Shown in pieces: positions 4,110 through 37,353 of a stretch of DNA of 64,000 nucleotides (positions within the stretch are counted from its first letter, which is position 1; each line of letters begins with the position of its first letter). The notes under the pieces were generated by a model. It did not search any database and was not told where the DNA came from. It saw only the letters and a list, made by a program, of their open reading frames with translations. Position numbers and translations under genes: made by a program. This DNA is from Phyllobacterium bourgognense (GTDB lineage: Bacteria > Pseudomonadota > Alphaproteobacteria > Rhizobiales > Rhizobiaceae), in assembly GCF_003337575.1 (NCBI RefSeq), contig NZ_QPJM01000008.1, positions 1-64,000 of the forward strand. The letters are read 5' to 3'.

Positions 4110-4984
4110 CGATGCTGCAACAAACCCTGCAGACAGCCCCCAAGCACATGCGTTCCGGCAATCGCGCCTGGAGAAAGCTCAAGGCCAACAAAAGTGCCGT
4201 TGTGGGGCTGGTCATCATTGTCTTTTTCGTGACTCTTGCCGTCATTGCGCCGCTGCTGCCTATCGCCGATCCCATGGCCACAAGCTGGTCGGCAATCCGC
4301 AAGGCGCCATCGGCGGCACATTGGCTGGGGACGGATGACATCGGCCGCGACATTCTCTCCCGCATGATCTGGGGTGCCCGGGCATCGCTGATGGCAGGCG
4401 TCTTTTCGGTCGGTATCGCAGTGGCCATTGGCGTTCCTCTCGGCCTGATGTCCGGCTATTTCGGTGGGTGGGTCGATATGATCATTTCCCGCGTCACCGA
4501 GGCCTTCCTCGCTATGCCATTTCTCATTATGGCGATCGCGCTCGCTGCCTTTCTTGGGCCAAGCCTGTTCAATGCGATGATTGCAATCGGTCTGTCGGCG
4601 ATGCCGCTTTTCGTGCGTTTGACCCGCGGTCAGGTCCTCAGCGTGAAGACAGAAGATTATGTGGAGGGCGCCCGGTCCATCGGTCTCGGTCACTACCAGA
4701 TCATTACACGCTACATCCTGCCGAATGTCTTCTCGCCGCTTCTGGTTCAGGCAAGCCTGACAATCGCGACCGCAATCATCGCCGAGGCCAGCCTGTCGTT
4801 TCTAGGCCTGGGGCAACAACCCCCTGCTCCGAGCTGGGGCTCGATGCTCAACGTGGCCAAAAACTTCCTGTCGCAAGCCCCATGGATGGCAATGTGGCCG
4901 GGTGCGGCAATCTTCCTGGTCGTTATCGGCTTCAATCTTCTTGGTGACGGTTTGCGCGACGCCCTCGATCCGCGCGAAGCATGA
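4106..4984 (+). CDS. ABC transporter permease, DppC type
   Basis: A 292-residue permease that overlaps the preceding gene by ATGA, which indicates translational coupling. The N-terminal extension ends in the first membrane helix (VGLVIIVFFVTLAVIAPLLP). It is followed by the DppC hallmark HWLGTDDIGRDILSRMIWGA, which marks the periplasmic segment. The EAA loop is DYVEGARSIGLGHYQIITRY. It forms the heterodimeric channel with the permease at 3162. Length and motifs are those of an intact protein. The next gene starts 22 bases later with its own ribosome site. Confidence 0.9.
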   Translation: MTMLQQTLQTAPKHMRSGNRAWRKLKANKSAVVGLVIIVFFVTLAVIAPLLPIADPMATSWSAIRKAPSAAHWLGTDDIGRDILSRMIWGARASLMAGVFSVGIAVAIGVPLGLMSGYFGGWVDMIISRVTEAFLAMPFLIMAIALAAFLGPSLFNAMIAIGLSAMPLFVRLTRGQVLSVKTEDYVEGARSIGLGHYQIITRYILPNVFSPLLVQASLTIATAIIAEASLSFLGLGQQPPAPSWGSMLNVAKNFLSQAPWMAMWPGAAIFLVVIGFNLLGDGLRDALDPREA

Positions 4985-5006: not shown

Positions 5007-6794
5007 ATGACCGCATTTACGACTCGGCCCGAAATCCTGGGGACATTCGGCGTCGTCACCTCAACGCACTGGATCGCTTCCGCCGTCGGCATGAGCATTC
5101 TGGAAAAGGGCGGCAACGCATTCGACGCTGCCGTTGCAACAGGTTTCGCACTCCAGATCGTCGAACCACATTTGAATGGTCCCGGTGGCGACATGCCGGC
5201 CATCATCTATTCGAAGAAAAAGGACAAGGTCGAGGTCATTTGCGCGCAGGGACCGGCCCCCGCGGGTGCTACCATCGACCACTACAAGGGTGAAGGACTT
5301 GACCTCATCCCCGGTGATGGCCTGCTGGCCACTGTTATTCCCGGATCATTCGACGGCTGGATGCTCATGCTTCGCGACTATGGCACGCTTTCCGTCCGCG
5401 ATGTTCTTGAGCCGGCTATCTACTATGCCGCAAACGGTCACCCCGTTCTTCCGCGTGTGGCGGCCACCATCGATGGATTGGGCGAGTTCTTTCGCAGGGA
5501 GTGGCCGACATCCTTTGAAACCTGGTTGCCTGGCGGCAGTGCACCCGAGCCTTGTTCCAATTTCAGGAATCCGGTCCTTGCCGAAACCTGGAAGCGCATC
5601 ATTGCCGAAGCCGAAACCAGGAAAAATCGCGAAGACCAGATCGACGCGGCGCGCAATGCCTTCTATCGCGGTTTCGTTGCCGAAAAGATTGCCGATTACC
5701 TGAAAAACGCCGAGGTCATGGATGCAAGCGGCAATCGGCACAAAGCCGTGCTCATGGCCGATGACATGGCGAACTGGAAAGCTACCGTCGAAGAGCCTCA
5801 GACTTACGACTATCACGGCTGGAATATTGCCAAGACAGGCCCCTGGGGCCAGGGTCCTGTACTCCTGCAGTCGCTCGCCCTTCTGAAGGGTTTCGATCTC
5901 GCGTCCATGGATCCGAACGGCGCCGACTTCATCCATACGGTGACAGAAGCCATGAAGCTGGGATATGCCGACCGGGAAGTCTACTACGGCGACCCGGCTT
6001 TCTGTGAGGTTCCGATGCGGCACCTCCTGTCCGACACTTACAACGATGAGCGCCGAAAGCTGATATCCGCTGAGGCTTCAATCGAGCTTCGGCCTGGCAC
6101 AATCGCGGGCTTCGAAACGCAATATGATCTGACGATGGCCATGCTGGGTGGCATGAGTTCGACGAAAGGTCCCGTCTACGAGCCGACGATGGCACATCTA
6201 TCGGAAAAGCGGGGCGATACGGTCCATATCGATGTCATCGACCGCGAGGGGAACATGGTGTCGGTAACGCCGTCCGGCGGCTGGTTGCAGTCGTCGCCCA
6301 CTATTCCCGGCCTCGGCTTCTGCCTCAACTCCCGCGCCCAGATGTTTTGGCTGAGCGAGGGTCTGCCGACGTCGCTTGCTCCGGGCAAGCGGCCGCGCAC
6401 CACCCTCACCCCGACGATTGCGCTCTTTGAGGGCCGACCAGCCATGGCATTTGGCACGCCCGGCGGCGACCAGCAGGATCAATGGCAGCTTCCGTTCTTC
6501 CTGCGCCATGTCCACCACGGAATGAATCTTCAGGCGGCGATCGACCAGCCGCTGTTCCATACGACACATTTTCCCAGCAGCTTTTATCCCCGCACCAGTC
6601 AGCCGGGCAACATCACCGTTGAGGCCGGTGTCGGAGCGGAGGTACTCGACGCACTGCGCCGGAAGGGTCACGAAATCACTGTGGCCGATCCCTGGACGGT
6701 GGGGCGTATGACCGCCGCCAAGCGCGATGCAGACGGTTTATTACGCGCTGCAGCTACACCCAGATTGATGCAAGCCTATGCAGTAGGACGGTAG
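5007..6794 (+). CDS. ggt: Gamma-glutamyltransferase-family Ntn hydrolase, no signal peptide
   Basis: A 595-residue member of the GGT family, which hydrolyses or transfers the gamma-glutamyl group of glutathione and related amides after autocleavage into two subunits. N-terminal family motifs are ILEKGGNAFDAAVATGFAL and HLNGPGGDMPAIIY. The expected nucleophile is Thr405 in GDTVHIDVIDREGNMVSVT, corresponding to the T-x-H start of the small subunit. The oxyanion-hole Gly pair appears in FGTPGGDQQDQWQLPFF. The ATG at 5007 is preceded by AAAAGGAAA; an open frame extends upstream but overlaps the permease gene. No signal peptide is visible, unlike periplasmic GGTs, so it probably acts in the cytosol on substrates brought in by the surrounding ABC transporter. 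It may be specific for another gamma-glutamyl or acyl amide. Confidence 0.85.
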   Translation: MTAFTTRPEILGTFGVVTSTHWIASAVGMSILEKGGNAFDAAVATGFALQIVEPHLNGPGGDMPAIIYSKKKDKVEVICAQGPAPAGATIDHYKGEGLDLIPGDGLLATVIPGSFDGWMLMLRDYGTLSVRDVLEPAIYYAANGHPVLPRVAATIDGLGEFFRREWPTSFETWLPGGSAPEPCSNFRNPVLAETWKRIIAEAETRKNREDQIDAARNAFYRGFVAEKIADYLKNAEVMDASGNRHKAVLMADDMANWKATVEEPQTYDYHGWNIAKTGPWGQGPVLLQSLALLKGFDLASMDPNGADFIHTVTEAMKLGYADREVYYGDPAFCEVPMRHLLSDTYNDERRKLISAEASIELRPGTIAGFETQYDLTMAMLGGMSSTKGPVYEPTMAHLSEKRGDTVHIDVIDREGNMVSVTPSGGWLQSSPTIPGLGFCLNSRAQMFWLSEGLPTSLAPGKRPRTTLTPTIALFEGRPAMAFGTPGGDQQDQWQLPFFLRHVHHGMNLQAAIDQPLFHTTHFPSSFYPRTSQPGNITVEAGVGAEVLDALRRKGHEITVADPWTVGRMTAAKRDADGLLRAAATPRLMQAYAVGR

Positions 6795-6800
6795 CCGACG

Positions 6801-8660
6801 ATGACGAACACTTTAGCAGCCACCGTGCCGGAAAATACGACCGACATTGCCAGGCCCAAGCCTGTCCTGTCAGTTGAAGGACTGTCCACGTCGTTCAGCG
6901 TTGATGGTGACTGGAAAAACGTGGTGCGCAACGTGTCGTTTGACGTCATGCCCGGCGAGACTGTTGCCATCGTTGGCGAATCCGGTTCGGGCAAGAGCGT
7001 CACCTCACTCTCCATCATGCGGCTCCTCGCCAAGGGTACGAGCCGCATCAATGGCAAGATCATGCTGAACGGCAAGGATCTTCTGTCGCTCACGGACAAG
7101 CAGATGCGCGATGTACGCGGCAATGACGCGTCGATGATCTTTCAGGAACCGATGACCAGTCTCAACCCCATCTTCACCATCGGCCGGCAAATATCGGAAG
7201 CTTTGACCTGCCACAGCAATCTGTCGCAGGCCGACGCGCGTGCCGAAACGATACGGCTCCTGGAAAAAGTGCGCATCCCCAACGCCTCATCACGGTTCGA
7301 CGAATATCCGCACCAGTTTTCCGGCGGTATGCGCCAGCGTGTGATGATCGCCATGGCCCTCGCCAGCCGGCCAAAACTTCTCATTGCCGACGAGCCTACA
7401 ACGGCACTGGATGTAACAATTCAGGGCCAGATTCTCGATCTCATCAAGGTTTTGCAGGAAGAGGAAGGCATGGCCGTTCTCTTCATCACCCATGATATGG
7501 GCGTGGTCGCGGAGATTTCCGACCGCACAATCGTTATGTATCGCGGTGAGGCAGTCGAGAGCGGCCCGACCGATGATATCTTCCATCGCGGCAAACACCC
7601 GTATACCCGCGCCCTGCTTTCCGCTGTGCCGCGATTGGGTTCGATGAAGGACAGCCGTTGGCCGCTGCGGTTTCCGATCGTCGATGTTACCACCGGCGTA
7701 TCCACCGTCCCGACCGAAGTCGCCGATACAGTCGACAAGCGCAAAACACCCATCCTCGAAGTCAAGAACCTCACCACGCGCTTCGATATCCGCTCCGGCT
7801 TGTTCGGGCGCAAGTCCGGCGCCATCCACGCAGTGGAAAACGTCTCCTTCGATCTGTTTCAGGGTGAAACCCTGTCCCTCGTCGGCGAGTCCGGCTGCGG
7901 AAAATCCACAACCGGCCGCTCGATCACCCGGCTTGTGCAACCCGACAGTGGCGAGGTTTATCTCGATGGCTACAATGTACTCACTCTTGACCAGGCGAGC
8001 CTGCGCAATATGCGCAAGAGCATCCAGATGATCTTCCAGGATCCTTTCGCCAGCCTCAATCCACGCATGAGTGTCGGCGCAACGATCGCCGAGCCCTTCA
8101 TTGCCCACAGGCTTGGAACCAAGAAACAAGCGCAGGACAAAACCGTCGACCTGCTCGAACGTGTCGGTTTGACCGCGGATATGATGAAACGCTATCCGCA
8201 TGAGTTCTCCGGTGGCCAACGTCAACGTATCGCCATCGCGCGTGCGCTCGCTCTTGATCCAAAGGTCATCGTTGCCGACGAGTCCGTCTCGGCACTCGAC
8301 GTTTCTATCAAGGCGCAGGTGGTCAATCTGCTGCTTGATCTGCAACAGAGCTTCAATCTGGCATTCCTGTTCATTTCCCACGATATGGCCGTGGTCGAGC
8401 GCGTGAGCCACCGGGTCGCCGTCATGTACCTTGGCGAAATCGTTGAAATTGGCCCGCGCGCCGCGGTGTTCGAAAATCCCCAGCACGACTATACGAAAAA
8501 GCTGATGGCTGCGGTGCCCGTGCCCGATCCCGCGCGCCGCGCGATCAAGCGCGACGTTGCGACCGATGAACTGAAAAACCCTGTTCGGTCCGTCGACTAT
8601 TTGCCGCCGGTCCGCAAATATTGTGAGGTGTCGAATGGACACCTCGTTCAAGTCGAGTGA
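6801..8660 (+). CDS. Fused double ABC ATPase (DppD-DppF / GsiA type)
   Basis: A 619-residue cytoplasmic ATPase made of two complete nucleotide-binding domains in tandem, replacing the usual separate DppD and DppF. The first domain has Walker A GESGSGKSVTS near residue 60, the signature FSGGMRQRV and Walker B LLIADEPTTALD. The second has Walker A GESGCGKSTTG near residue 365, the signature FSGGQRQRI and Walker B VIVADESVSALD. Each domain is followed by the oligopeptide-transporter C-terminal segment (HPYTRALLSAVPRL; HDYTKKLMAAVPVPDP), which often carries an Fe-S site. It starts six bases after the gamma-glutamyltransferase gene and powers the permease pair at 3162-4984. Confidence 0.93.
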   Translation: MTNTLAATVPENTTDIARPKPVLSVEGLSTSFSVDGDWKNVVRNVSFDVMPGETVAIVGESGSGKSVTSLSIMRLLAKGTSRINGKIMLNGKDLLSLTDKQMRDVRGNDASMIFQEPMTSLNPIFTIGRQISEALTCHSNLSQADARAETIRLLEKVRIPNASSRFDEYPHQFSGGMRQRVMIAMALASRPKLLIADEPTTALDVTIQGQILDLIKVLQEEEGMAVLFITHDMGVVAEISDRTIVMYRGEAVESGPTDDIFHRGKHPYTRALLSAVPRLGSMKDSRWPLRFPIVDVTTGVSTVPTEVADTVDKRKTPILEVKNLTTRFDIRSGLFGRKSGAIHAVENVSFDLFQGETLSLVGESGCGKSTTGRSITRLVQPDSGEVYLDGYNVLTLDQASLRNMRKSIQMIFQDPFASLNPRMSVGATIAEPFIAHRLGTKKQAQDKTVDLLERVGLTADMMKRYPHEFSGGQRQRIAIARALALDPKVIVADESVSALDVSIKAQVVNLLLDLQQSFNLAFLFISHDMAVVERVSHRVAVMYLGEIVEIGPRAAVFENPQHDYTKKLMAAVPVPDPARRAIKRDVATDELKNPVRSVDYLPPVRKYCEVSNGHLVQVE

Positions 8661-26984: not shown

Positions 26985-27048
26985 GGACTTATGCCGGACC
27001 GTAGTCAGACCAAAGTCTGATTACGGTGCGACCAATGTTTGCTATGGA
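26985..27048 (+). promoter_or_regulatory. Promoter-like module A, in front of the polysaccharide operon
   Basis: The half-site GGACTTATG (26985) is followed 20 bases later by the palindrome TCAGAC-CAAA-GTCTGA (27005-27020) and then by TATGGA (27043-27048), a possible -10 box. The same parts at the same spacing recur at 33317, 33505 and, reversed, 37353. The core resembles a LuxR/NarL-type dyad. Transcription from here would give a 5' leader of about 235 bases before the acyltransferase ATG; that leader contains no clear gene or terminator. Confidence 0.65.
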
Positions 27049-27290
27049 AAGATTTGGGAGGCAGGCAGCACCTTGCTCTTTGTGCCACGTGCCAAATACG
27101 AGCTGCCCCAATGTTCTGTGCCGAATGAAGCTTTGGTACGTCGCGGCTGATTTTTTTAGTGGGGTGATCACGCCCCGAGAGCTTGTTTGTTGGGTCAACG
27201 AGGGAGGCCACTCGGCAAGAACCGTCGCTGGTTGGAGGGTTGGCGCGGTCCCAGGAGATTGCCGGCATAGCTGAACGCTGAAGGATCCCG

Positions 27291-28481
27291 ATGTCGAATG
27301 TGCGTTATCGGCAGTTGGACGGTCTGAGAGCCGTTGCCGTCGCCATGGTATTGTATGCGCATTTTTTTGCTGCCGATGGCTCCTATTGGGGCCACGTCGG
27401 GGTGCGCCTGTTCTTCGTGCTGAGCGGGTTCCTGATTACGCGGCTTCTCCTGGAAGCGCGCTCCGCCGCAGAATTCGAACCCGTTGCGGCAATCAAGTCG
27501 TTTTACATTCGCCGGGCATTGCGCATTTTTCCCCCATATTTTGGCATGTTGGGCTTCGTCTGGCTGGCGGGCCTGGAGGAATCCAAACGCGTGCTGGCCT
27601 GGCATGCGTTTTACCTTTCGAATTTCTGGTATGCCCTTCGCGATGAGTGGACGCCGTGGATCTTATGTCACACCTGGAGTCTGAGTATCGAAGAGCAGTT
27701 CTACATCATCTGGCCGTTGATTATTCTGTTGGCACCGCGTCGTTCGATCGAACGGATTTGTATTGGCGTCATCCTCTTTTCGTTAGCATTTCGCTTCTAC
27801 TGGCCTGTTACGGGAACGCCTTCTCTCGCGCGTGATCTGCTTCCTCCGGCATCGATGGACGCACTGGCATCCGGTGCATTGCTCGCAGCGTGGCAATCGA
27901 GGACCGCACCCTTGCCCCGATGGATGTCGATGAGCTCGGTGCCGCTCGCGGCTGCCTTTCTCATTTTGTTGTGGCTGAGACCGATGCCGATGCCCATGAC
28001 GCTGGATTGGGCACGCTGGATCGGTCTTGAGGTTCTTCCTCTCGTCCCGCTGGTGATAATTGTGAGCTGCTGTTCGGCAGGATTGGGCGGCTATCTGGGC
28101 CGGTTGGCTGAATGCCGGCCACTGACTGCCCTTGGTCGCATCAGCTACGGCGTTTACCTTTTTCACGCGATCGTTCTTGCGTTGATCGTCAAGGCTCAGC
28201 CCTGGATACCCGTTAATGTCTCGGAGCAAGGATTTGGCCGGCTCCTCATTGCAGGTGCCGGCACACTGACGCTCGCTTCGATCTCATGGCTGGTCCTGGA
28301 AAAGCGGATCAACGCACTAAAAGATTTCTTCCCCTACGTGGTTCCAAAAGAGCGCAGCTCCGCTCAAGGGCTATATGGGACGAAAGACCCGGGGAGTCCC
28401 GCTTATCTGCACCATCATTCGGTGACAACGACGTTCTCCCAAACCCTCAATCGTCAACGAACTGGCCCCGGTGAACCATGA
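27291..28481 (+). CDS. Membrane acyltransferase, family 3 (OafA/ExoZ-like)
   Basis: A 396-residue integral membrane O-acyltransferase with about ten helices. Family motifs are YRQLDGLRAVAVAMVLYAHF at the N-terminus (the R and H are the usual active-site residues), VGVRLFFVLSGFLITRLLLE, FYIRRALRIFPPYFGMLGF and HTWSLSIEEQFYIIWPLIIL. LGRISYGVYLFHAIVLALIV lies near the end. Such enzymes add acetyl or succinyl groups to exopolysaccharide or lipopolysaccharide sugars. It is the first gene of a four-gene unit with two glycosyltransferases and an ABC exporter and overlaps the next gene by four bases. Confidence 0.9.
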   Translation: MSNVRYRQLDGLRAVAVAMVLYAHFFAADGSYWGHVGVRLFFVLSGFLITRLLLEARSAAEFEPVAAIKSFYIRRALRIFPPYFGMLGFVWLAGLEESKRVLAWHAFYLSNFWYALRDEWTPWILCHTWSLSIEEQFYIIWPLIILLAPRRSIERICIGVILFSLAFRFYWPVTGTPSLARDLLPPASMDALASGALLAAWQSRTAPLPRWMSMSSVPLAAAFLILLWLRPMPMPMTLDWARWIGLEVLPLVPLVIIVSCCSAGLGGYLGRLAECRPLTALGRISYGVYLFHAIVLALIVKAQPWIPVNVSEQGFGRLLIAGAGTLTLASISWLVLEKRINALKDFFPYVVPKERSSAQGLYGTKDPGSPAYLHHHSVTTTFSQTLNRQRTGPGEP

Positions 28482-29587
28482 CGCGCACTCCACTCGTCTC
28501 CGTCCTGTTACCTGTCTATAACGGCGAACCCTACCTCGCCGCGGCGCTCGCCAGTATTCTACGTCAGGACCACGAGCGTCTGGAGGTCATCGCGATCGAT
28601 GACGGCTCAACGGATGGCTCCTTGCAGATTCTGCAGCGATACCAGAAGGCCGACGGTCGTATATCCATCGTCTCACGAGAGAACCGTGGACTCATCGCGA
28701 CCTTGAACGAGGGCCTGGTTCTGGCCAAGGGTGACCTTGTCGCCCGGATGGATGCCGATGACGTCTGCTACACGACTCGTCTGTCGCGGCAAGTCTCGGT
28801 GTTTAAGGAGCAACCGCACCTGGCAATCTGCGGTACGGCTATCGACACGCTCATCGGCGACCGTATCGTGCGGGGCTCGCTTGATCCGCTCTACCAATGG
28901 GCGAGTTTGGGGATATTATCGAAGTTCTTTACAATCTTCATGCACTCGACCGTGGTCTACAACAGACAAGTTATCCCGGCTGAGATGCTGTTCTATGACG
29001 CCCGCTATGTGCACGCCGAAGATTTCGATCTTTTCAGACGGATTACGGATCGCTTTTCAGCGGCAATGATCGGTGAAAGTTTGGTCGCCTACCGTATCCA
29101 CGGCGAAAGCGTCACAAACAAACACAAGCGACAAATGCGCAAGACGCATCTGAAAATCGTCGCTGAGAATCTCGAGCGAGAAGGTTTGGTCGATAGTTCT
29201 GATGTTTTCGACGACATCGCCGACGCCGTGACGACGAAAAGTGTTCAGCAGGTTGCGGAATGTATCCTGGGGCTCGAAAAGAAGATCTCGACACAACCCG
29301 CGGCGACACGGCCAAGTTATGAAGAAGGCACATTGAACCTCTTCTACTTTCTCTATCAGCTCATCAGCGATGAACAGCGACCGGAGTTCACGCATGAGTT
29401 CTTAACCCGAACGCAAAAATGGGGGCTCATCCGGCGCCGCGAACGATATAGTCTTCTCCCCGGTGCCTACATGCCGTGGTTCAGTGGCATTTCAATTGCC
29501 GCCAACAAGCGCGTCGACGCATTATCCCGGTATTTGCAGTCCGTACCCGCTGCGACCGTCCTTCCCCGTTCTGACCTGATCGGCTGA
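28478..29587 (+). CDS. Family 2 glycosyltransferase
   Basis: A 369-residue cytoplasmic GT-A-fold glycosyltransferase. The nucleotide-sugar site is VSVLLPVYNGEPYLAAALAS with VIAIDDGSTDGSLQILQRY. The metal-binding DxD-like motif is LVARMDADDVCYTTRLSRQV, and the acceptor loop region includes YVHAEDFDLFRRITDRF (ED is the usual catalytic base position). Residues 230-369 form a helical tail of unknown role. It probably adds one sugar to a lipid-linked repeat unit made by this operon. Donor and acceptor are not readable from sequence. Confidence 0.88.
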   Translation: MTRTPLVSVLLPVYNGEPYLAAALASILRQDHERLEVIAIDDGSTDGSLQILQRYQKADGRISIVSRENRGLIATLNEGLVLAKGDLVARMDADDVCYTTRLSRQVSVFKEQPHLAICGTAIDTLIGDRIVRGSLDPLYQWASLGILSKFFTIFMHSTVVYNRQVIPAEMLFYDARYVHAEDFDLFRRITDRFSAAMIGESLVAYRIHGESVTNKHKRQMRKTHLKIVAENLEREGLVDSSDVFDDIADAVTTKSVQQVAECILGLEKKISTQPAATRPSYEEGTLNLFYFLYQLISDEQRPEFTHEFLTRTQKWGLIRRRERYSLLPGAYMPWFSGISIAANKRVDALSRYLQSVPAATVLPRSDLIG

Positions 29588-29593
29588 GCTAGA

Positions 29594-30628
29594 ATGGATA
29601 CCGAACTCCACCAGACCGCCCCACACAGCTTCAAGATGGCGCATGCCCTGTCAACAACAGCTACGCCGGAGTCAGAAAAACCGGTGCATGCGAGTTTCAT
29701 TGTGTGTACGCGAAACCGTGCCGCGGCACTTGCGGCCTGTATTAGATCAATCGAGGCGGCGTGCCGGTCTCATGCTGCCTTTACGAGCGAACTCGTCGTT
29801 GTCGACAACGGCTCGACGGACAGCACGCGAGAATACGTGACCGGCGTGGCCGCGACCTCGGACATCGCAATCACCCTGCTATCGGAAGCCCGTCCGGGCT
29901 TAGCCGCAGCACGCAACGCCGGGCTGCGGCACGCGCGGGGCAATATCGTTATTTTCATCGACGACGATTGCGTAGTTCATCGTGGCTATCTCATTGACCT
30001 GGAACGTCACTATGCGACCGGTGAACCTTTGGTCATCCGCGGTGGACGCGTTGAGCTCGGCAACGCCAATGACTTACCGTTCACGATCAAGCGGTCGCCG
30101 ACGCGCGCGCGGCTTACACGCGATGTCCATCCCGGCGGCTTCGTGGTGGGCTGCAACATGACGATGCATCGCGATGTCGCGGCCCGTATCGGCCGTTTCG
30201 ACGAGCTGCTCGGCGCGGGTGCACCGCTGCGGGCCGCAGAGGACACCGACTACCTGATACGCGCATTTCAGCTCAACGTCCCTGTCGAGTACGTGCCTGA
30301 CATGACTGTCTACCACCACCACGGACGAAGCTCTCGCCAGGATGTCGAAAGGCTCCACCGAAATTACAGCTTGGGCAACGGGGGGCTTTACGTGAAGCAT
30401 ATCCGATGCGCGCCATGGCTGCTTCGTCACTTCTTCTGGTCCGTGAGGTCGGCTTGCAGGGAGCTTTTCGGCGGCCCTCAATTCGACCCTGATCTGCACC
30501 TGTCGCACTGGCCAATTGTGTTCATGAATTTGCTTGGCGCTGCCGCGTTCGCCGGTCTTCGTTTGACAAAACCGTGGCGTCGCCGCGAGGTGCGCCAAGA
30601 CAAACAGGCAACTCTTGAGCTAAGGTGA
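29594..30628 (+). CDS. Family 2 glycosyltransferase
   Basis: A 344-residue glycosyltransferase. The N-terminal GT-A fold shows ASFIVCTRNRAAALAACIRS, then SELVVVDNGSTDSTREYVTG and the DxD motif NIVIFIDDDCVVHRGYLIDL. Catalytic-base region: GAPLRAAEDTDYLIRAFQLN. The C-terminus carries an amphipathic or membrane-associated stretch (HWPIVFMNLLGAAAFAGLRL). It starts six bases after the preceding glycosyltransferase and is followed two bases later by the exporter, so it belongs to the same polysaccharide operon. Confidence 0.87.
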   Translation: MDTELHQTAPHSFKMAHALSTTATPESEKPVHASFIVCTRNRAAALAACIRSIEAACRSHAAFTSELVVVDNGSTDSTREYVTGVAATSDIAITLLSEARPGLAAARNAGLRHARGNIVIFIDDDCVVHRGYLIDLERHYATGEPLVIRGGRVELGNANDLPFTIKRSPTRARLTRDVHPGGFVVGCNMTMHRDVAARIGRFDELLGAGAPLRAAEDTDYLIRAFQLNVPVEYVPDMTVYHHHGRSSRQDVERLHRNYSLGNGGLYVKHIRCAPWLLRHFFWSVRSACRELFGGPQFDPDLHLSHWPIVFMNLLGAAAFAGLRLTKPWRRREVRQDKQATLELR

Positions 30629-30629
30629 C

Positions 30630-32420
30630 ATGATGTTGCAATTCGTATTGCCAGGCACGCGGATGCTCCGAGACGCGCTGGGGCGCCAACTGCCCCTGCT
30701 TTCGGCTGTGGTCATCCTCGGTTTGAGCAGCGCTGCGCTCGAAGGCGCCGGTATCGGTCTCGTCATTCCCATGCTGAGCATCATTGCCGGCCACGAGAAT
30801 GACACGGGGATGGGCGGCCTCTCTGCTGTCTTCCAACAAGTCGGATCGGGGTTGGATGATGGAGAACGGCTCGTTGTCATCGCGGTGATCGTCCTCGCCT
30901 TGATCACGCTGAAGAACATTTTGGCATTTTCAAACACGGTGCTCACGACCTACATCTACGGTAAAGCCAGCCATTCCATTCGAAGCGCGCTCTCACAGCA
31001 GCTCCTGAGCATAGGATACCCTTTCTTCCTGCAACAGAGTCCCGGGCGACTGCTGAATATCATCTCCAACGAGTCGTGGCGGGCTTCAGATGCCATCCAG
31101 ACCGTCCTCGCGTCGATTGTGAGCGCGTCGGCGGCGATCATTCTGCTGGGGTTCCTTCTGCTTCTGTCCTGGCCGATGACAGTGTTCGTGGCGCTGGGTC
31201 TGGCGCTGGTCCAACTTGCGCATGCCGTTCTTTCCGCCAGTCTGAAAGACCCGAGCCGTAGCGTCACATCGCTCAATAGCGAACTTGCATCCAGAATGCT
31301 CCACCTCGTGCATGCCGGGCGGCTGATCCGTATCTTTGGGCAGGAGCGGCGTGAAAAGGCGGTGTTCGACAAAGCATCGGACGCCGTTCGCCGGGCCGGC
31401 TTCGTTCTCCAAACCCGCCAGGGGGCACTGCCGCCGCTGACCGAGGTCCTGCATGCTATGCTTTTCCTGGCAGTGGTCGTGGTCGCATGGTTCGCGAACG
31501 TGAGTTTTCCGGTCATCGTCGCATTCATCGTCCTGCTCTACCGCCTGCAGCCACATATGCGTGCCCTGCAATTGTCATGGAGCCAGATCCAGGGTTGGAG
31601 CGGTTCACTGGAAGAAGTGAGATGGTTGCTCGATTCATCAGACAAGCCAGAACCTCCATCGGGCACGCAGCCCGCCCAAGGCATACGTCAACGGATGCAA
31701 TTCGACGGCGTGACCTTTAAATACCCTGGTTCAGGTTCCCGCGCCGCGGTGTTGCATTCCGCGACCTTCGAAATCCGCAGCGGTTGCTCGACAGCAATCA
31801 TCGGGCGATCAGGTGCAGGCAAAACCACTGTCGTAAACCTTTTATGCAGATTTGTGGAGCCGGATGAGGGGCATATCATCGTTGATGGCGTGCCCTTGAG
31901 CCAGATCGATCCGATGCAATGGCGAAGCCAGATTGCGTTGGCCAGCCAGGACCTGGAACTTGTGGACGGTACGATTTTAGAGAACATCACCTACGGGCAA
32001 GACCTGGCGACAGCCGCAGAAGCGGAGGGCGCAGCGAAATTGGCCGAGGCACACGAGTTTATAGAAAACCTGCCTTATGGATACCAGACGATCGTTGGCT
32101 ACAGAGGCGTCAATCTGTCTGCCGGACAACGGCAGCGCATTGCATTGGCAAGAGCAATGGTGCGCGACCCCGAAATACTGATTCTGGACGAAGCAACAAA
32201 TGCTGTGGACGGTCTTTCGGAAGCGGCAATCGTCGAGACGCTGAAGTCGAGGGCAGGACGGCGTACAACGATCGTGATCAGTCATCATCGGAGCACCATT
32301 GCATTTTGCGATGATGTTGTGGTCCTCAGCGGGGGTCGCGTGAAAACCCAGGCTCCATTTGCCGAAGTAGCCTCGCTGAGTATGGACCAACTCTATGAGC
32401 ATGAGCATCGAAAGGTCTGA
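30630..32420 (+). CDS. ABC exporter, fused membrane and ATPase domains (MsbA type)
   Basis: A 596-residue half-transporter. Residues 1-330 hold six transmembrane helices (for example VVILGLSSAALEGAGIGLVI and ILLGFLLLLSWPMTVFVALG). Residues 350-590 hold the ATPase with Walker A IIGRSGAGKTTVVNLLCRF, the signature LSAGQRQRIALARAM and Walker B ILILDEATNAVDGLSEAA, followed by the switch His in TIVISHHRSTI. Working as a homodimer it should flip a lipid-linked glycan or similar product of the preceding glycosyltransferases across the inner membrane. A second copy-like sequence is not present. It is the last gene of the unit. Confidence 0.9.
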   Translation: MMLQFVLPGTRMLRDALGRQLPLLSAVVILGLSSAALEGAGIGLVIPMLSIIAGHENDTGMGGLSAVFQQVGSGLDDGERLVVIAVIVLALITLKNILAFSNTVLTTYIYGKASHSIRSALSQQLLSIGYPFFLQQSPGRLLNIISNESWRASDAIQTVLASIVSASAAIILLGFLLLLSWPMTVFVALGLALVQLAHAVLSASLKDPSRSVTSLNSELASRMLHLVHAGRLIRIFGQERREKAVFDKASDAVRRAGFVLQTRQGALPPLTEVLHAMLFLAVVVVAWFANVSFPVIVAFIVLLYRLQPHMRALQLSWSQIQGWSGSLEEVRWLLDSSDKPEPPSGTQPAQGIRQRMQFDGVTFKYPGSGSRAAVLHSATFEIRSGCSTAIIGRSGAGKTTVVNLLCRFVEPDEGHIIVDGVPLSQIDPMQWRSQIALASQDLELVDGTILENITYGQDLATAAEAEGAAKLAEAHEFIENLPYGYQTIVGYRGVNLSAGQRQRIALARAMVRDPEILILDEATNAVDGLSEAAIVETLKSRAGRRTTIVISHHRSTIAFCDDVVVLSGGRVKTQAPFAEVASLSMDQLYEHEHRKV

Positions 32421-32512
32421 CGCGCTCAATTCGCCGTCTTTTCTCTTGGCGGGTCCCGTTTCCCCTTGCAGTGCGCGCTGGAACTCGATTCTATCCGGCC
32501 CACCAAGCCGTA

Positions 32513-33172
32513 TCAATACGACCCGCGAGACGCGCATACGGCAGGAATGGTCTTGAGAATGATTATGATATCTTTCTGAAAGGACCAGTTTTCGACGTAC
32601 TGCTTATCGAAAGCGATGCGCTCGTCATAGTTCACGTCATTGCGCCCGCTGATTTGCCACACACCAGTCAGGCCCGGGCGTGATTTGAAATAGTAGGTTG
32701 CGGCGGAACCATAGAGTTCGATCTCGTCCTTCACTACAGGACGCGGCCCAACCAGGCTCATCTCGCCGCGAAGAATGTTAACCAGCTGGGGTAGTTCGTC
32801 GAGGCTCAATTTCCGCAACACGAAGCCGACTGTGGTGATACGTGGATCGACCTGCAGCTTTCGCGCTGCCAACCATTCCGCACGTGCCTCCGGATTTGCA
32901 GCGAAATGGGCTTCAAGGATGGCATCACCGTCGGTAACCATGGTGCGGAACTTGAGGCAATAGAACGGATTCCCGCCGCGCCCGATGCGGCGATGGCCAT
33001 AAAAAACAGGCCCACCGTCCGACAATTTAACCAGACAGGAGAGCAGTATGAACAGCGGGCTGAGAAGGATGAGGGCAAGGATCGCGGCAAGCACATCGAA
33101 CGATCGTTTCAAGAGCCCTCCGATGGGAAGTTTTTCAAGTTCTTCGGATTGTCGAATTATTTTCGTCGTCAC
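32513..33172 (-). CDS. Bacterial sugar transferase, ExoY/PssA-like priming enzyme
   Basis: A 219-residue monotopic membrane phosphoglycosyl transferase that loads the first sugar-phosphate onto undecaprenyl phosphate. It has one N-terminal hydrophobic hairpin (FDVLAAILALILLSPLFILL) followed by the conserved blocks GGPVFYGHRRIGRGGNPFYC, KFRTMVTDGD, LRKLSLDELPQLVNILRGEM, SLVGPRPV and RPGLTGVWQISGRNDVNYDE. The catalytic Asp-Glu pair of the family is in LSLDELPQ. The start is GTG at 33172 with AAAGGA upstream. It points toward the polysaccharide operon from the opposite strand and lacks the large N-terminal membrane domain of WbaP-type relatives, as in ExoY. Confidence 0.9.
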   Translation of the reverse strand: MTTKIIRQSEELEKLPIGGLLKRSFDVLAAILALILLSPLFILLSCLVKLSDGGPVFYGHRRIGRGGNPFYCLKFRTMVTDGDAILEAHFAANPEARAEWLAARKLQVDPRITTVGFVLRKLSLDELPQLVNILRGEMSLVGPRPVVKDEIELYGSAATYYFKSRPGLTGVWQISGRNDVNYDERIAFDKQYVENWSFQKDIIIILKTIPAVCASRGSY

Positions 33173-33316
33173 AAGAAGTCCTTTCGAGTGGTTCTCAAGA
33201 AGCTGGCTTCGTGTTTTGGATGGCTAAACCAACCCTTCATATGCGCGGTAATGCCCGACGCCAACCCGGGACTGGCGACTTCGTTCCACGGTTGGGCTTC
33301 AGCCCTAGGAGGCGTC

Positions 33317-33381
33317 AGACCTATGCCAAGTCCAAGATCAGACCAAAGTCCGATTGCCGTGCGGCAATGAATAGATTTGGT
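33317..33381 (+). promoter_or_regulatory. Promoter-like module B
   Basis: The half-site AGACCTATG (33317) stands 21 bases before the dyad TCAGAC-CAAA-GTCCGA (33338-33353). A TAGATT box (33372-33377) is a possible -10. The downstream 20 bases resemble those of module A closely (CCGTGCGGCAATG versus CGGTGCGACCAATG). It lies in the 543-base gap between the divergent sugar transferase and the Gly-rich gene and could serve either. I see no gene in that gap. Confidence 0.6.
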
Positions 33382-33504
33382 CGCCGTGGGCACTCGATGA
33401 ACCAGGTCGCAAACACCCAGCACACCATCGCGTCACAAAGCGGTACGCTCCAAATGTCCCAAGACAGTCACGTTCCGCCCCGGACTTCAGACCAGCGAAG
33501 GATG

Positions 33505-33568
33505 AGACTTATGATAATCGATGATCAGACCAAAGTCGGAATACCTCGAGGCAATCGTTTGGTATGGA
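33505..33568 (+). promoter_or_regulatory. Promoter-like module C, in front of the Gly-rich gene
   Basis: AGACTTATG (33505) is followed 20 bases later by TCAGAC-CAAA-GTCGGA (33525-33540) and by TATGGA at 33563, exactly the spacing of module A; over the aligned 65 bases I count 44 identities with A. It lies about 150 bases before the ATG of the secreted Gly/Asn-rich protein at 33716. Confidence 0.65.
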
Positions 33569-33715
33569 ACAGTACGGTGTTGACACGAGCGCCAACTGCA
33601 AGGGAGCCCTGTGAGGTCCGCCATTTCTGCGACTGCAGTTGCGTTGAGCCGCAACAGAGACCAGACTTTTTCTTTGTCTTGCCTCTGTTATGAGGACAGA
33701 ATTTCAGGAGGCACT

Positions 33716-34195
33716 ATGCATACCCGTTTTGGACTGACTCGCGTTCTTTGTAGCGCTTGCGTAGCTGCAACGTTGGTGGCGACGCCCTTGGAAATCACCC
33801 TCGATGGTCAATCCCTGAGTTTGCACGCACAATCGGCATGGGCAAAAGATGGGAATAATGGCGGCGGCAATGGAGGCGGCAATGGAGGTGGTAAGGGCGG
33901 CGGCAATGGCAACGGAGGCGACGGTGGAAGCAGTGGCGGCGGCAATGGGAAAGGTAACAACGGCAAGAACGGGAAAAACGACAATGCGAGCCAGAGCGGC
34001 GAGGACAAGGGCACTGCCGTGACCCGCGAAAAAGTGGCAGTCGATGGCACTTCGATTGAAGTTCGTCACAAGAATGGAATGACCGAAAGGATTGAGGCCG
34101 GGCGCTACATGATGAAGGATGCAAAGGGGCGCACAATCATAAACCGCACAGCAACAAATTCTGATCAATCGAGATTACAATCGTTCGTCCGCTGA
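33716..34195 (+). CDS. Secreted Gly/Asn-rich protein of unknown function
   Basis: A 159-residue protein. The start at 33716 has AGGAGG four bases upstream; the longer open frame begins 35 codons earlier without support. Residues 1-43 form a long signal region ending in AQSAWA. Residues 46-87 are built of GGGN/GGGK units encoded by near-identical AATGGAGGCGGC-type codon runs. Residues 110-159 form a compact charged domain (IEVRHKNGMTERIEAGRYMM, then KDAKGRTIINRTAT). I recall this R-H-x-N-G...GRY...D-x-x-GRT-x-x-x-R pattern from uncharacterised rhizobial proteins. It is probably exported to the cell surface. It neighbours a two-component pair and has a promoter module in common with the polysaccharide operon. 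Confidence 0.72.
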   Translation: MHTRFGLTRVLCSACVAATLVATPLEITLDGQSLSLHAQSAWAKDGNNGGGNGGGNGGGKGGGNGNGGDGGSSGGGNGKGNNGKNGKNDNASQSGEDKGTAVTREKVAVDGTSIEVRHKNGMTERIEAGRYMMKDAKGRTIINRTATNSDQSRLQSFVR

Positions 34196-34201
34196 TCGTT
34201 T

Positions 34202-34218
34202 GCACCCACGCCGGGTGC
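34202..34218. terminator. Candidate hairpin between convergent genes
   Basis: GCACCC and GGGTGC form a six-base-pair stem with a five-base loop, between the ends of the Gly-rich gene (+) and the response regulator (-). No clear T-run is seen on either side, so it is only a weak bidirectional terminator candidate. Confidence 0.35.
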
Positions 34219-34235
34219 GCCCCTGTATTGACCAA

Positions 34236-34892
34236 TCATACCAGGCGGATATCGTGACCGGCGTCACGCAGCGCCATCGCGGCTTCGGTCCTGTTCGTGA
34301 CATTGAGTTTCGCAAATATGCGCCCCATATGGTGCTTTACAGTTTTTTCGTGAATGTCGAGCTTCAGCGCAATCCGCTTGTTGCTCAATCCGGACGCAGC
34401 AAGATCCAAGACCTCATACTCGCGACTTGAGAGTTCGGAGATCGGATCGGTCCTATTGGGCGCATTGGATATGGATGACAGATCCGATAGCATCCGGGCC
34501 GATAGAGCCGGAGAAACATAACCTTCACCAGAAGCAACAGCCCGGATTATTTCGGCCAGCGCCCGTGAGCCGACGCCTTTAAGGACATATGCTTTCGCGC
34601 CGCTGTTGAGAGCCTTCGTCACGTCGTCGCTCCTCTCTGATACAGTCAGCATGATGATCTTTTGGTCGGGGAAATGATCAAGGATCGGCGAGACCGCGTC
34701 CAAACCTCCCCCCGGCATGGAGATGTCCAATAAAATAACGTCCGGGCTGTGATCCCGGGCAATCCGGATCGCGTCCTCCTTTGTGCAGCCTTCTCCAACG
34801 ATCTGAAAGCCGTTGATTTCGCTGAGGCTGCGCCTGACCCCCTCCCTGAACAATGGATGATCGTCAATCACTGCAATACGTAGTCCCGTCAT
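34236..34892 (-). CDS. NarL/LuxR-family response regulator
   Basis: A 218-residue DNA-binding response regulator. The receiver domain has the acidic pair in IAVIDDHPLFREGVRRSL, the phospho-acceptor Asp56 in VILLDISMPGGGLDAV, Thr in MLTVSERSDD and Lys105 in AYVLKGVGSRALAEII. The C-terminal LuxR helix-turn-helix reads LSSREYEVLDLAASGLSNKR, with recognition helix residues in HEKTVKHHMGRIFAKLNV. It overlaps the kinase stop by one base, so the pair is co-translated. It is the prime candidate to bind the dyads TCAGAC-CAAA-GTCNGA found nearby, because NarL-type dimers bind short palindromes; that link is inference. Confidence 0.92.
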   Translation of the reverse strand: MTGLRIAVIDDHPLFREGVRRSLSEINGFQIVGEGCTKEDAIRIARDHSPDVILLDISMPGGGLDAVSPILDHFPDQKIIMLTVSERSDDVTKALNSGAKAYVLKGVGSRALAEIIRAVASGEGYVSPALSARMLSDLSSISNAPNRTDPISELSSREYEVLDLAASGLSNKRIALKLDIHEKTVKHHMGRIFAKLNVTNRTEAAMALRDAGHDIRLV

Positions 34893-36283
34893 TACGCCTG
34901 CTCCAGTCCGTCCAAATTCAGTGACATCCGTACCCGAGTGCCTCGTGCCGAAGACTCTATTGTGAAATGGCCGCCAAGGCTTTCCACCCGGTCCCTTAGT
35001 CCGGCAAGTCCAATACCGCTACGACAGACATCGGCAGGATCGAAACCCGGCCCGCTGTCAGAAACATCGACTACAACGCGCTGATCCCGGAAAGTTTCCA
35101 CAACCCGTTGTTCAATGCCTCCACCATGCTGGAAGCCGTTGTTCAAAGCTTCTTGTATAAACCGATAAATGCAAATTTTTGCCGAAGGTTCAAGCTGCAC
35201 CGGCGTGCCTGATATCGATATATCGACGCTCGACCCGGTGCGATACTCGTGGGCTTTGACCGCCCGTTGGATGATTTCCGGCAAATCGGCCGCCTCTATA
35301 TGTGGCAGCACGAGGCCTTCGCAGATGTTCCTGATCTCACGCATCGCCTCGTCCAGGCTTTCCTTTATCGCCATCACTTCAACTTCACGCGTTTCTTCCG
35401 AGACGGCAGGATTGACAAGGACATCGCTGTCCAACCTCAGCGCAGCGAACGCCATGAGTTGCGCGGGGCCGTCATGGATATCCGCCCCTATGCGCCTGAG
35501 ATAGCTCTCATTCAGTGCCGCCGCACGTTGAGAGGCGCGTTGGACACGCGCATGTAACCTCTTATTTTGCAGCAGCAGATCGGAAAGCTCGCTCACCCGT
35601 TGCTTTAGGTCCCTGCGTTGGTCGTCGATGGTCTTGCTGCCGCGCAACACGATCACGGACAAGACCAGAAAAAAAGCCAGTGTAAAGAAGGCTACAGCAA
35701 GCCAGCTGCGCAGGCGCGCCTGATCCAAACTGTGTTGAAATTCGTCAGCTATCTCGTAAAATTCCGATACGGCGACCACTTTGCCCGACCACGGTTGGAG
35801 GACCGGATTATAAATCTCCAGAAGCGGCTTGCCGCTCGCCCGCTCAGCTTCGCTTTCCACGTCATCAATCTTGTTAAAATTAGCGACCATCTTGCCAGCA
35901 AACGCCGTCTTCAGGTCATCGTTGACGGCAAAGCGTTTGCCCATAAGCTTTTTGTCGTTGGAATACAGAACCAGCCCGTCGCTTCGCCAGAGTCTGAAAG
36001 ACATGAGCCTCGCAGCCAGCGCCCCCTGCCCCAACGTCTCATCCAACGCACGCGTAACGGTTTCGTCGAGCATCTGATTGGTTTGCATGTCGGGAAGAAT
36101 GGGCGCGACAACGCTATCCACATACAAGGCGGTTGCCGCCGCCGAATTACGAGTAACGGCAGCTTCAATCAAGCCCGCGACAAAAGCGCCAATCAAAATC
36201 ATCGCACCCACCGAGACTAACCCTCCAATGAGCAGAAACTGCCTTGCAAGAGACTGAGAATTCCAGCGGGTCAGCAGATTCAT
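34892..36283 (-). CDS. Membrane histidine kinase, HisKA_3 (NarX/DegS) type
   Basis: A 463-residue sensor kinase. Membrane helices at residues 15-40 and 193-213 flank a periplasmic sensor of about 150 residues with no recognisable fold. A coiled coil (DDQRRDLKQRVSELSDLLLQ) leads to the dimerisation/phosphorylation domain with His270 in YLRRIGADIHDGPAQLMAFA. The ATPase domain shows EALNNGFQHGGG and VDVSDSGPGFDPADV, then GIGLAGLRDRVESLGGHF. It is the cognate partner of the overlapping response regulator. No strong ribosome site precedes the ATG. The 438 bases upstream contain no supportable gene apart from the terminator at 36662. Confidence 0.92.
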   Translation of the reverse strand: MNLLTRWNSQSLARQFLLIGGLVSVGAMILIGAFVAGLIEAAVTRNSAAATALYVDSVVAPILPDMQTNQMLDETVTRALDETLGQGALAARLMSFRLWRSDGLVLYSNDKKLMGKRFAVNDDLKTAFAGKMVANFNKIDDVESEAERASGKPLLEIYNPVLQPWSGKVVAVSEFYEIADEFQHSLDQARLRSWLAVAFFTLAFFLVLSVIVLRGSKTIDDQRRDLKQRVSELSDLLLQNKRLHARVQRASQRAAALNESYLRRIGADIHDGPAQLMAFAALRLDSDVLVNPAVSEETREVEVMAIKESLDEAMREIRNICEGLVLPHIEAADLPEIIQRAVKAHEYRTGSSVDISISGTPVQLEPSAKICIYRFIQEALNNGFQHGGGIEQRVVETFRDQRVVVDVSDSGPGFDPADVCRSGIGLAGLRDRVESLGGHFTIESSARGTRVRMSLNLDGLEQA

Positions 36284-36661
36284 GGCTGTGTACGTTGGGT
36301 TGGCTCAAAGCCCTTTGATCGAGGCGATATTCGAATGTCAGTTAAGCACCGATAACCCGATGCGTTCATTGTCAATCTCCATTCTGGGTACCCATGCGGT
36401 CGCAGCACCGGTCTGCCCATAGCGGTCGCGAGCCACGAGTTTCGTTCTACCGCGATGTGTCGCGTGATCACCGTTAGCGCAATGTCTGCCATCGTGCAAA
36501 TTGTGCATGGGTTGGTTTTCGCCGCGTGCCTCGTTCAATATTCCGCGGCATTCTTGTTCGAAAGCTCGCTGTGTTGACGCTACTTTCGATGGCCGCTGCG
36601 TTCATAAGATGAAGATTTGGAATTCTTCCCAACTGAACATGACGCCGTGTCAGCTCCCTGT

Positions 36662-36687
36662 GAAAACAGCGACCCGAAGGCCGCTGT
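36662..36687 (-). terminator. Intrinsic terminator after the second Gly-rich gene
   Basis: On the reverse strand, ACAGCGGCC-TTCG-GGTCGCTGT forms a nine-base-pair stem (one G-T pair) closed by a UUCG tetraloop and followed by TTTTC, 35 bases after the stop codon of the gene at 36722. All features of a rho-independent terminator are present. Confidence 0.85.
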
Positions 36688-36721
36688 CGAAAGATTACCC
36701 AAGTATAGATCCTTTAAGATC

Positions 36722-37237
36722 CTATTGGCGCGCATCCAGCAATGCATCAATGCGATCGACCTGTGCCGGGGTGAGCGTGCGGCCAAAGGCGGTTTCAAGC
36801 TGTGCAACCGCATCGTCAAGCGCCTCCTCCTGCAGTGCAGGGTCAGTCAGCGCCAAGGCCTCTTCCCGGCTGCGCTCATAGGTCGCAATCTTGCCTACGG
36901 AAGAGTTCGGTGCGGCCCGCTCTCTTGCCCGTGCAGACGCATGCGCAGCGTTGAGCGGACCCAATCCAGTTTTATCGTCGTCGCTGTCCAGGGATGATTT
37001 CTCGACTTTGGCTTTGTCGTGGGCATTTACAGAATTGCCGCGCTCGGACGATTTGCCATGGCTTCCACCGTTGTTTCCTTTACCGCCGCCATTGCCGTTG
37101 CCGCCACCATTGCCACCGCCGTTTTTGGCAAATGCCGAACCTACGGGATTGAAGTGATCTGTGGTTGCACACATTGCGCCGGCAAAAAACAAACCAAGAC
37201 ACGCTGCTGCGACGATACCAACTTTAGATTGAACCAT
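36722..37237 (-). CDS. Secreted Gly/Asn-rich protein of unknown function, second copy type
   Basis: A 171-residue protein; the start at 37237 follows GAGGAGG by seven bases. Residues 1-37 form a signal peptide (VAAACLGLFFAGAMCATT, ending SAFA). Residues 39-61 are GGGN/GGGK repeats like those of the protein at 33716. Residues 95-171 form a helical domain beginning GPLNAAHASARARERAAPNS, a pattern I recall from uncharacterised rhizobial proteins, and ending in a helix-rich FGRTLTPAQVDRIDALLDAR. The C-terminal domain differs from that of the protein at 33716, so the two share only the export signal, the Gly-rich linker and the promoter module. A strong terminator follows. Confidence 0.72.
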   Translation of the reverse strand: MVQSKVGIVAAACLGLFFAGAMCATTDHFNPVGSAFAKNGGGNGGGNGNGGGKGNNGGSHGKSSERGNSVNAHDKAKVEKSSLDSDDDKTGLGPLNAAHASARARERAAPNSSVGKIATYERSREEALALTDPALQEEALDDAVAQLETAFGRTLTPAQVDRIDALLDARQ

Positions 37238-37288
37238 TATCCACCTCCTCAATGAATTGCATGCCGACAGAGCCGGACCGACGATCCA

Positions 37289-37353
37289 AACATAGGCTTC
37301 TTCGGGGAACGAGAAATCGGACTAAAGACCTACCAGTAAAAATCAATAGGCCT
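37289..37353 (-). promoter_or_regulatory. Promoter-like module D, in front of the second Gly-rich gene
   Basis: On the reverse strand the half-site AGGCCTAT (from 37353) precedes, by 21 bases as in module B, the diverged dyad TAGGTC-TTTA-GTCCGA (37317-37332). A TATGTT box (37289-37294) stands at the same distance as TATGGA in modules A and C. It is the most diverged copy, but the spacing of all three parts is conserved. It lies about 50 bases before the ATG at 37237. Confidence 0.55.

Follow-up and report, generated by a model that had tools for sequence, protein, structure and literature searches.

The window analysed here, a stretch of 64,000 nucleotides of Phyllobacterium bourgognense (assembly GCF_003337575.1, contig NZ_QPJM01000008.1, positions 1 to 64,000 of the forward strand), carries between 26985 and 37353 four copies of a module composed of a half-site RGVCYTAT, a dyad and, in three copies, a TATG box. 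The modules lie among genes for polysaccharide assembly and export, two predicted exported Gly-rich proteins designated as GLY1 and GLY2, and a two-component pair of a membrane histidine kinase and a NarL-type response regulator. The gene order is acyltransferase, two family 2 glycosyltransferases and ATP-binding cassette (ABC) exporter (27291-32420, plus strand), sugar transferase (minus), GLY1 (plus), regulator and kinase (minus), and GLY2 (minus). Modules and genes are as follows.

Module 1, 26985..27046, plus strand: half-site 26985-26992, dyad TCAGACCAAAGTCTGA at 27005-27020, TATG at 27043-27046; 286 bp from dyad start to start codon of the acyltransferase
Module 2, 33317..33353, plus strand: half-site 33317-33324, dyad TCAGACCAAAGTCCGA at 33338-33353, without TATG box; flanked by module 3 and the divergent sugar-transferase gene, target gene ambiguous
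Module 3, 33505..33566, plus strand: half-site 33505-33512, dyad TCAGACCAAAGTCGGA at 33525-33540, TATG at 33563-33566; 191 bp from dyad start to start codon of GLY1
Module 4, 37291..37353, minus strand: half-site 37353-37346, degenerate dyad TAGGTCTTTAGTCCGA at 37332-37317, TATG at 37294-37291; 95 bp from dyad start to ATG of GLY2 (37237)
27291..28481, plus strand: membrane acyltransferase (Acyl_transf_3; PF01757, expectation value (E) 5.8e-27), first gene of the operon
28478..29587, plus strand: family 2 glycosyltransferase (PF00535)
29594..30628, plus strand: family 2 glycosyltransferase (PF00535)
30630..32420, plus strand: ABC exporter, MsbA/HepA-like (PF00664 and PF00005; in NCBIfam under the curated cut-offs of those families)
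32513..33172, minus strand: sugar-1-phosphate transferase (Bac_transf; PF02397, E 4.3e-61)
33716..34195, plus strand: GLY1, predicted exported Gly/Asn-rich protein; its C-terminal domain is conserved (GRYxMKDxxGRTIxNR)
34236..34892, minus strand: response regulator with receiver and LuxR/GerE DNA-binding domains, expected phospho-acceptor D56, recognition helix EKTVKHH
34892..36283, minus strand: membrane histidine kinase with an extracytoplasmic sensor part (HATPase_c; HisKA_3 just below cut-off; H270)
36722..37237, minus strand: GLY2, predicted exported Gly-rich protein, C-terminal part with TDPALxxEAL

All four modules were verified, and they exceed by far what chance would give; a single box is absent from one copy. 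The half-site and dyad starts listed above, 20 or 21 bases apart, were confirmed by script and agree in position and sequence with the first-pass annotation, which had also placed the modules correctly before the acyltransferase operon and both Gly-rich genes. A regular expression joining half-site and dyad matched the window four times on both strands, each time at one of these modules; it matched the whole genome (5,615,054 bases) at exactly the same four places, with no match in the reversed control, and matched none of 200 mononucleotide shuffles of the window searched on one strand. A random spread of the motif over the genome is thus ruled out. The 13-mer TCAGACCAAAGTC, described earlier as identical in three copies, does occur three times in the genome, always at this locus (reversed control, 1). 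The dyad alone is not specific, because with up to two mismatches its genome-wide count (126 forward and 135 reverse) shows no excess over the reversed control (131 and 142).

TATG stands exactly 38 bases past the dyad start in modules 1, 3 and 4. Between dyad and TATG, at about +27 to +36, there is a third element, CAATGTTTG in module 1 and CAATCGTTTG in module 3, with similar copies in homologous sites. A profile of half-site and dyad, designated R1, was built from alignment A3 of 19 sites (15 from Phyllobacterium and four from other genera; row L062:12126-12164 is misaligned left of its dyad). When the genome was ranked by R1, the four modules came first, with module 1 at the top (E 1.2e-8) and module 4 as the weakest of them (E 0.008), and the next place outside the modules had E 0.31; as the modules belong to the training set, what counts is the distance between them and this next place.

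The sequences preceding the acyltransferase gene, GLY1 and GLY2 were aligned for five genomes, namely that of the window and G013, G008, G018 and G002. Across four orthologous loci, each dyad has at most one arm base changed, or one centre inverted. At the acyltransferase site, the dyad arms are unchanged in four orthologues, and the centre in G013 reads TTTG versus CAAA in the window (L061:2066-2081 and window 27005-27020). TATGG is kept in all five genomes at the acyltransferase and GLY1 sites. The dyad of module 4 is likewise kept in 5/5, while CCTATC replaces CCTATG in three of the four relatives. The spacer between modules 2 and 3 drifts and the sites persist, as in L062 the two are about 67 bases closer to each other than in the window. 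Sequences similar to module 4, with GATTTTTACTGGTAGGCCTTTAGTCCGATCTCG and its variants, were also found in other Phyllobacterium genomes, at L062:16349, L064:13942, L209:299 and L224:3967, where a long gene behind them is not evident; these are possibly promoters of small RNAs or short genes.

Occurrence of the sites follows that of the kinase. Among 20 Phyllobacterium genomes searched with R1 at E<=0.05, a site was found in every one of the seven that have an orthologous kinase (79-100%); the 13 others gave none, their best match being no better than E 0.29. The R1 training sites come from six of these seven genomes; when trained sites and their orthologues were removed, the result was 6/7 against 0/13 (p about 2e-4). 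The strict pattern matched 15 places in six of the 20 genomes, all of them bearing the pair, and its control gave two matches, both in genomes without the pair; G009 has the pair and no match. The acyltransferase itself was detected at E<=1e-60 in six of the seven kinase-bearing genomes and in 0/13 others. In P. endophyticum (G006), a module with TATGG, which is outside the R1 training set, precedes an acyltransferase homologue (77%) that lies on the same contig as the pair, 554 kb away.

Beyond the genus, a scan with a kinase alignment over one genome per species (84,980 species) returned 394 stretches with kinase relatives, and the best 80 were kept, 74 of which are not labelled Phyllobacterium. 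The regulator directly follows the kinase in 77 of the 80 loci by script; in two more the genes abut, and in one the contig ends there. In 53/80 loci (48/74 outside Phyllobacterium), the C-terminal motif of GLY1 is encoded past the regulator in convergent orientation. The places expected to carry sites were taken as the stretch up to 420 bases before the kinase or the one 300-1,200 bases past the regulator. Of 99 dyads with a score of at least 22 in the 74 loci, 75 fall in these 96,307 bases (7%) and 24 in the other 1,351,520, a density ratio of 44. Such dyads were found on the kinase side in 36/74 loci, on the GLY1 side in 36/74, and on either side in 42/74, a count also given with the GLY1 side extended to 300-1,700 bases past the regulator. 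Score 22 is reached by 23 of the 48 GLY1-upstream regions and by 0.5% of shuffled ones; for these regions, and for the GLY1-family test reported below, the shuffles were mononucleotide.

In a consensus-free count over 59 GLY1-side and 62 kinase-side regions, all dereplicated, GACC-N2-GGTC was present in 17 and 10 of them, with a mean of 0.5 in 30 shuffles and maxima of 2 and 3, respectively. GTCC-N10-GGAC, which corresponds to neighbouring dyads 22 bp apart, was present in 11 of the 59 GLY1-side regions (shuffles mean 0.4, max 2). Because shuffling leaves shared ancestry in place, and because unrelated dyads (CAAT-N14, GCCT-N4) also rise above shuffles, this count is supportive and not proof. 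Relative to the dyad start, 35 dereplicated arrays of the kinase side have GACC maxima at -19 (14 arrays) and +3 (20) and GGTC maxima at +9 (23) and +30 (27). In S. meliloti 1021, TCGGACGATCGTCCGA and TCGGACCAAAGTCCGA lie 22 bp apart upstream of the GLY1 homologue. Several Rhizobium loci have on the kinase side, by eye, a TAGATT-like box at a similar distance, which suggests that the pair may regulate its own expression. The conservation upstream of orthologous genes that the first-pass annotation had called for was therefore found in the genus, before the unlinked acyltransferase homologue and around the pair in other genera.

A separate arrangement was found in L142 of isolate R129_K, a locus not labelled Phyllobacterium. 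The kinase (10001, plus strand) and a divergent run of genes starting with a Gly-rich one have a dyad at 9836 between them, a placement which holds if the Gly-rich gene begins at an internal ATG (9809 or 9713). In the run (L142:3602-9941), this gene is followed by genes for an acyltransferase, a pair of glycosyltransferases and an ABC exporter, which share 65-79% identity with the enzymes of the window. By sequence, it is an independent linkage of the same polysaccharide set with a Gly-rich gene, the kinase and this kind of site.

The regulator has NarL/FixJ-type architecture, with PF00072 (E 2.7e-21) and PF00196 (E 3.4e-20) both over the gathering cut-off, and its closest relatives in PDB are NarL, VraR and DevR. 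The kinase exceeds the cut-off for HATPase_c and reaches 22.9 of the 24 bits needed for HisKA_3; its listed fold matches are mostly kinase cores, DesK among them. In NCBIfam, the regulator is under the curated cut-off of each of the 25 best of 109 matches, e.g., NarL with 158 of 250 bits. With the NarL, VraR and DesR class, which holds the best solved relatives, it shares the two-domain architecture and differs in its targets. MctRS/MadRS belong to the same superfamily by NCBIfam, but the regulator reaches only 128 of 300 bits for MctRS and the kinase 86 of 700, with the match in its C-terminal half only.

The DevR consensus has a GAC-N4-GTC core, and the dyads share this core. In the HMMER alignment, helix EKTVKHH falls on EKTVKNY of DevR, with EKTVK identical, so that K183 and K186 take the positions of DevR K179 and K182, and H187 that of N183. 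DevR Lys179, Lys182 and N183 contact bases (PMC4082495). DevR promoters have a primary and a secondary site bound cooperatively, the start-proximal site overlapping the -35 element (PMC3029386). DevR/DosR-DevS/DosT is thus similar in being built on a NarL-subfamily regulator with conserved recognition-helix lysines and in combining a strong site with a weaker adjacent one. Unlike DevR sites, the Phyllobacterium sites have their own outer bases (TCRGACC-NN-GGTCYGA) and 22-bp phasing, and the gene set is of polysaccharide and Gly-rich proteins rather than dormancy genes. The regulator is only distantly similar to DevR (PDB 3c3w, E 1.2e-27), and neither it nor the targets are orthologous.

From the sites, their phasing, conservation, co-occurrence and co-location with the pair, we infer that the modules are most probably operator-promoters of the adjacent kinase and NarL-type regulator. 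The earlier proposal that the regulator at 34236 binds the dyads has strong comparative support from sequence and is considered here as partly supported overall. Several results weigh against this reading. Module 2 has no TATG within 60 bases of its dyad and none at that place in its four orthologues, and the GLY1-side arrays in Rhizobium and Sinorhizobium are mirrored; the claim that all copies are promoters of one geometry is therefore less well supported, and TATG about 38 bases after the dyad start is present in modules 1, 3 and 4 and missing in module 2. No dyad with a score of at least 22 was found at either expected place in 32 of the 74 loci outside Phyllobacterium. Among GLY1-family genes elsewhere in the genus (12 loci entered, 11 with a result), eight of 11 are without a dyad above shuffles; the other three have dyad score 24, but two of them, at the ends of contigs C4 and C10 of G006, are almost identical to each other, and the C4 copy is a trained site. 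An order-wide search with R1 at E<=0.03 matched 2/17 kinase-bearing genomes (the window's own and one other) and 2/232 others, and is uninformative, as R1 is biased to Phyllobacterium and stricter filters apply beyond 40 genomes. Moreover, the 7/7 against 0/13 and the locus counts come from kin loci by statistics without a tree, and may partly reflect shared ancestry.

The dyads could instead belong to another regulator, with the kinase-regulator pair itself merely its target. A dyad with a score of at least 21 within 420 bases upstream of the kinase, present in 38/74 other loci, fits a target as well as autoregulation, and the window genome encodes a second kinase, 37% identical to that of the locus. 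This explanation is unlikely, since sites at E<=0.05 are missing from the 13 Phyllobacterium genomes without the orthologous kinase, sites in other genera cluster around the pair, and the recognition helix suits a GAC/GTC core as in DevR. Even less probable is that a dispersed repeat or a small mobile element gave rise to the modules and that they have no regulatory role: only the core is common and the flanks of modules 1 to 3 differ, all modules stand upstream of genes with four copies in the whole genome, and the same palindrome precedes homologous genes in other genera. Such a repeat would account for several copies with a common core and for the module-4-like sequences without an evident gene in L062, L064, L209 and L224.

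Inverted repeats with four-base centres could also fold as short RNA hairpins (6-bp stem, 4-base loop) in leader transcripts, e.g., as attenuators, and the arms of module 1 do pair fully. Pairing drops, however, to 5/6 in modules 2 and 3 and 4/6 in module 4, and in three modules the dyad is upstream of the likely -10 box; one orthologue has the centre inverted, TTTG for CAAA, as suits a symmetric site bound by protein. A hairpin function is scarcely credible.

If the modules are operators of the pair, we infer binding, activation, start sites, signal and a cell-surface role of the products as follows. The membrane kinase would sense an extracytoplasmic signal and phosphorylate the regulator at D56. 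Regulator dimers would bind dyad arrays TCRGACC-NN-GGTCYGA with 22-bp spacing (two helical turns), in which a strong central dyad would be placed about 42 bp ahead of the transcription start and flanked on both sides, at a distance of about 22 bp, by weaker half-sites. With TATGG taken as the -10 box and the start placed by it, the central dyad near -42 would occupy a class II position. The bound regulator would then substitute for the missing -35 element and recruit RNA polymerase to the -10-like TATGG box. The polysaccharide assembly and export operon and the exported Gly-rich proteins would be switched on together, and probably also a DUF1236 protein elsewhere in the genome.

The last gene is represented by the array TTTCAGACCTTTGCC..TCAGACTTTCGTCCGA..CCCAAGTCC observed before a DUF1236/Gly-zipper gene far from the window (L222, G000:C1:714500-722500, about 3990-4070). 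Its upstream dyad has score 22, and similar arrays are present in other pair-bearing Phyllobacterium genomes. A homologue of this protein (at least 55% identity over at least 110 residues) was found in the fetched stretch of 28 of the 74 loci outside Phyllobacterium, with a strong dyad (at least 22) upstream in only five of them (L091, L099, L102, L107 and L128). DUF1236 genes are probable members of the regulon by their upstream sequences, and its weaker part.

The system is a NarL-type two-component regulon, and so of a known kind, while the regulon itself is apparently undescribed. No paper on it was found by literature search, and such searches are weak evidence of absence; the S. meliloti tags SMb21516-21524 gave no paper either, which has little weight as minCDE tags gave none likewise. 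A surface-matrix programme of a glycan plus Gly-rich proteins, as suggested from the gene content, is less well supported than the regulon. Possible, though rather doubtful, is a conserved, undescribed rhizobial envelope-signalling system in which the pair and its 22-bp-phased arrays would co-induce a secreted glycan, the two exported Gly-rich families GLY1 and GLY2/GlyA, and DUF1236 Gly-zipper proteins to form a composite extracellular matrix on plant surfaces or in symbiosis. The analysis yields a concrete putative operator, a regulator and a list of targets for a pair that many rhizobia and agrobacteria carry. If these hold, deleting the regulator alone would give access to the function of several conserved Gly-rich and DUF1236 proteins.

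The acyltransferase, glycosyltransferase and exporter set together with the sugar transferase is, by its families, of polysaccharide type; the sugar-1-phosphate transferase resembles the C-terminal part of WbaP (NCBIfam, below cut-off). In both GLY1 and GLY2, a hydrophobic N-terminal stretch is followed by a middle rich in Gly/Asn and by conserved C-terminal parts. No Pfam family was found for GLY1 at E<=0.001, and the C-terminal parts of both proteins are without a convincing Pfam family. TrAA12 was rejected as a family for GLY1: 10 of 18 members match it at E<=1 (best 9.6e-8), and these were judged low-complexity Gly-rich matches. The predicted structure of GLY1 has high confidence from about residue 110 to the C-terminus, and this fold has no significant relative among solved structures (best E 0.077). 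By eye and unscored, the C-terminal part of GLY2 is like that of the Rhizobium Gly-rich protein encoded divergently from the kinase.

The window genome has another GLY1 gene (L220, G000:C5:308500-316500, gene 4125-4682), which lies behind R1's best outside match (3953-3978, E 0.31); the simple dyad score of this site is not above shuffles, and the site is suggestive only. In L205 (G013:C4:422000-434000, region 5878-7174), a second regulator gene has only short kinase fragments beside it and yet keeps a module that scores well (E 9e-5). In G002, which has a second kinase-regulator pair, a frame near that pair at L065:8206-8700 (G002:C2) ends in the GLY1 C-terminal tail without the Gly-rich part and overlaps a sugar-transferase-like stretch on the opposite strand; it looks like a remnant of a deletion.

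A match to the kinase at E<=1e-40 was found in 185 of 72,556 plasmid records. The regulator match in S. meliloti 1021 is on pSymB, and in S. meliloti ml66 the gene set adjoins minCDE. P. zundukense has a 99%-identical kinase on a 990-kb plasmid, and for this reason the P. bourgognense locus may also be on a large secondary replicon.

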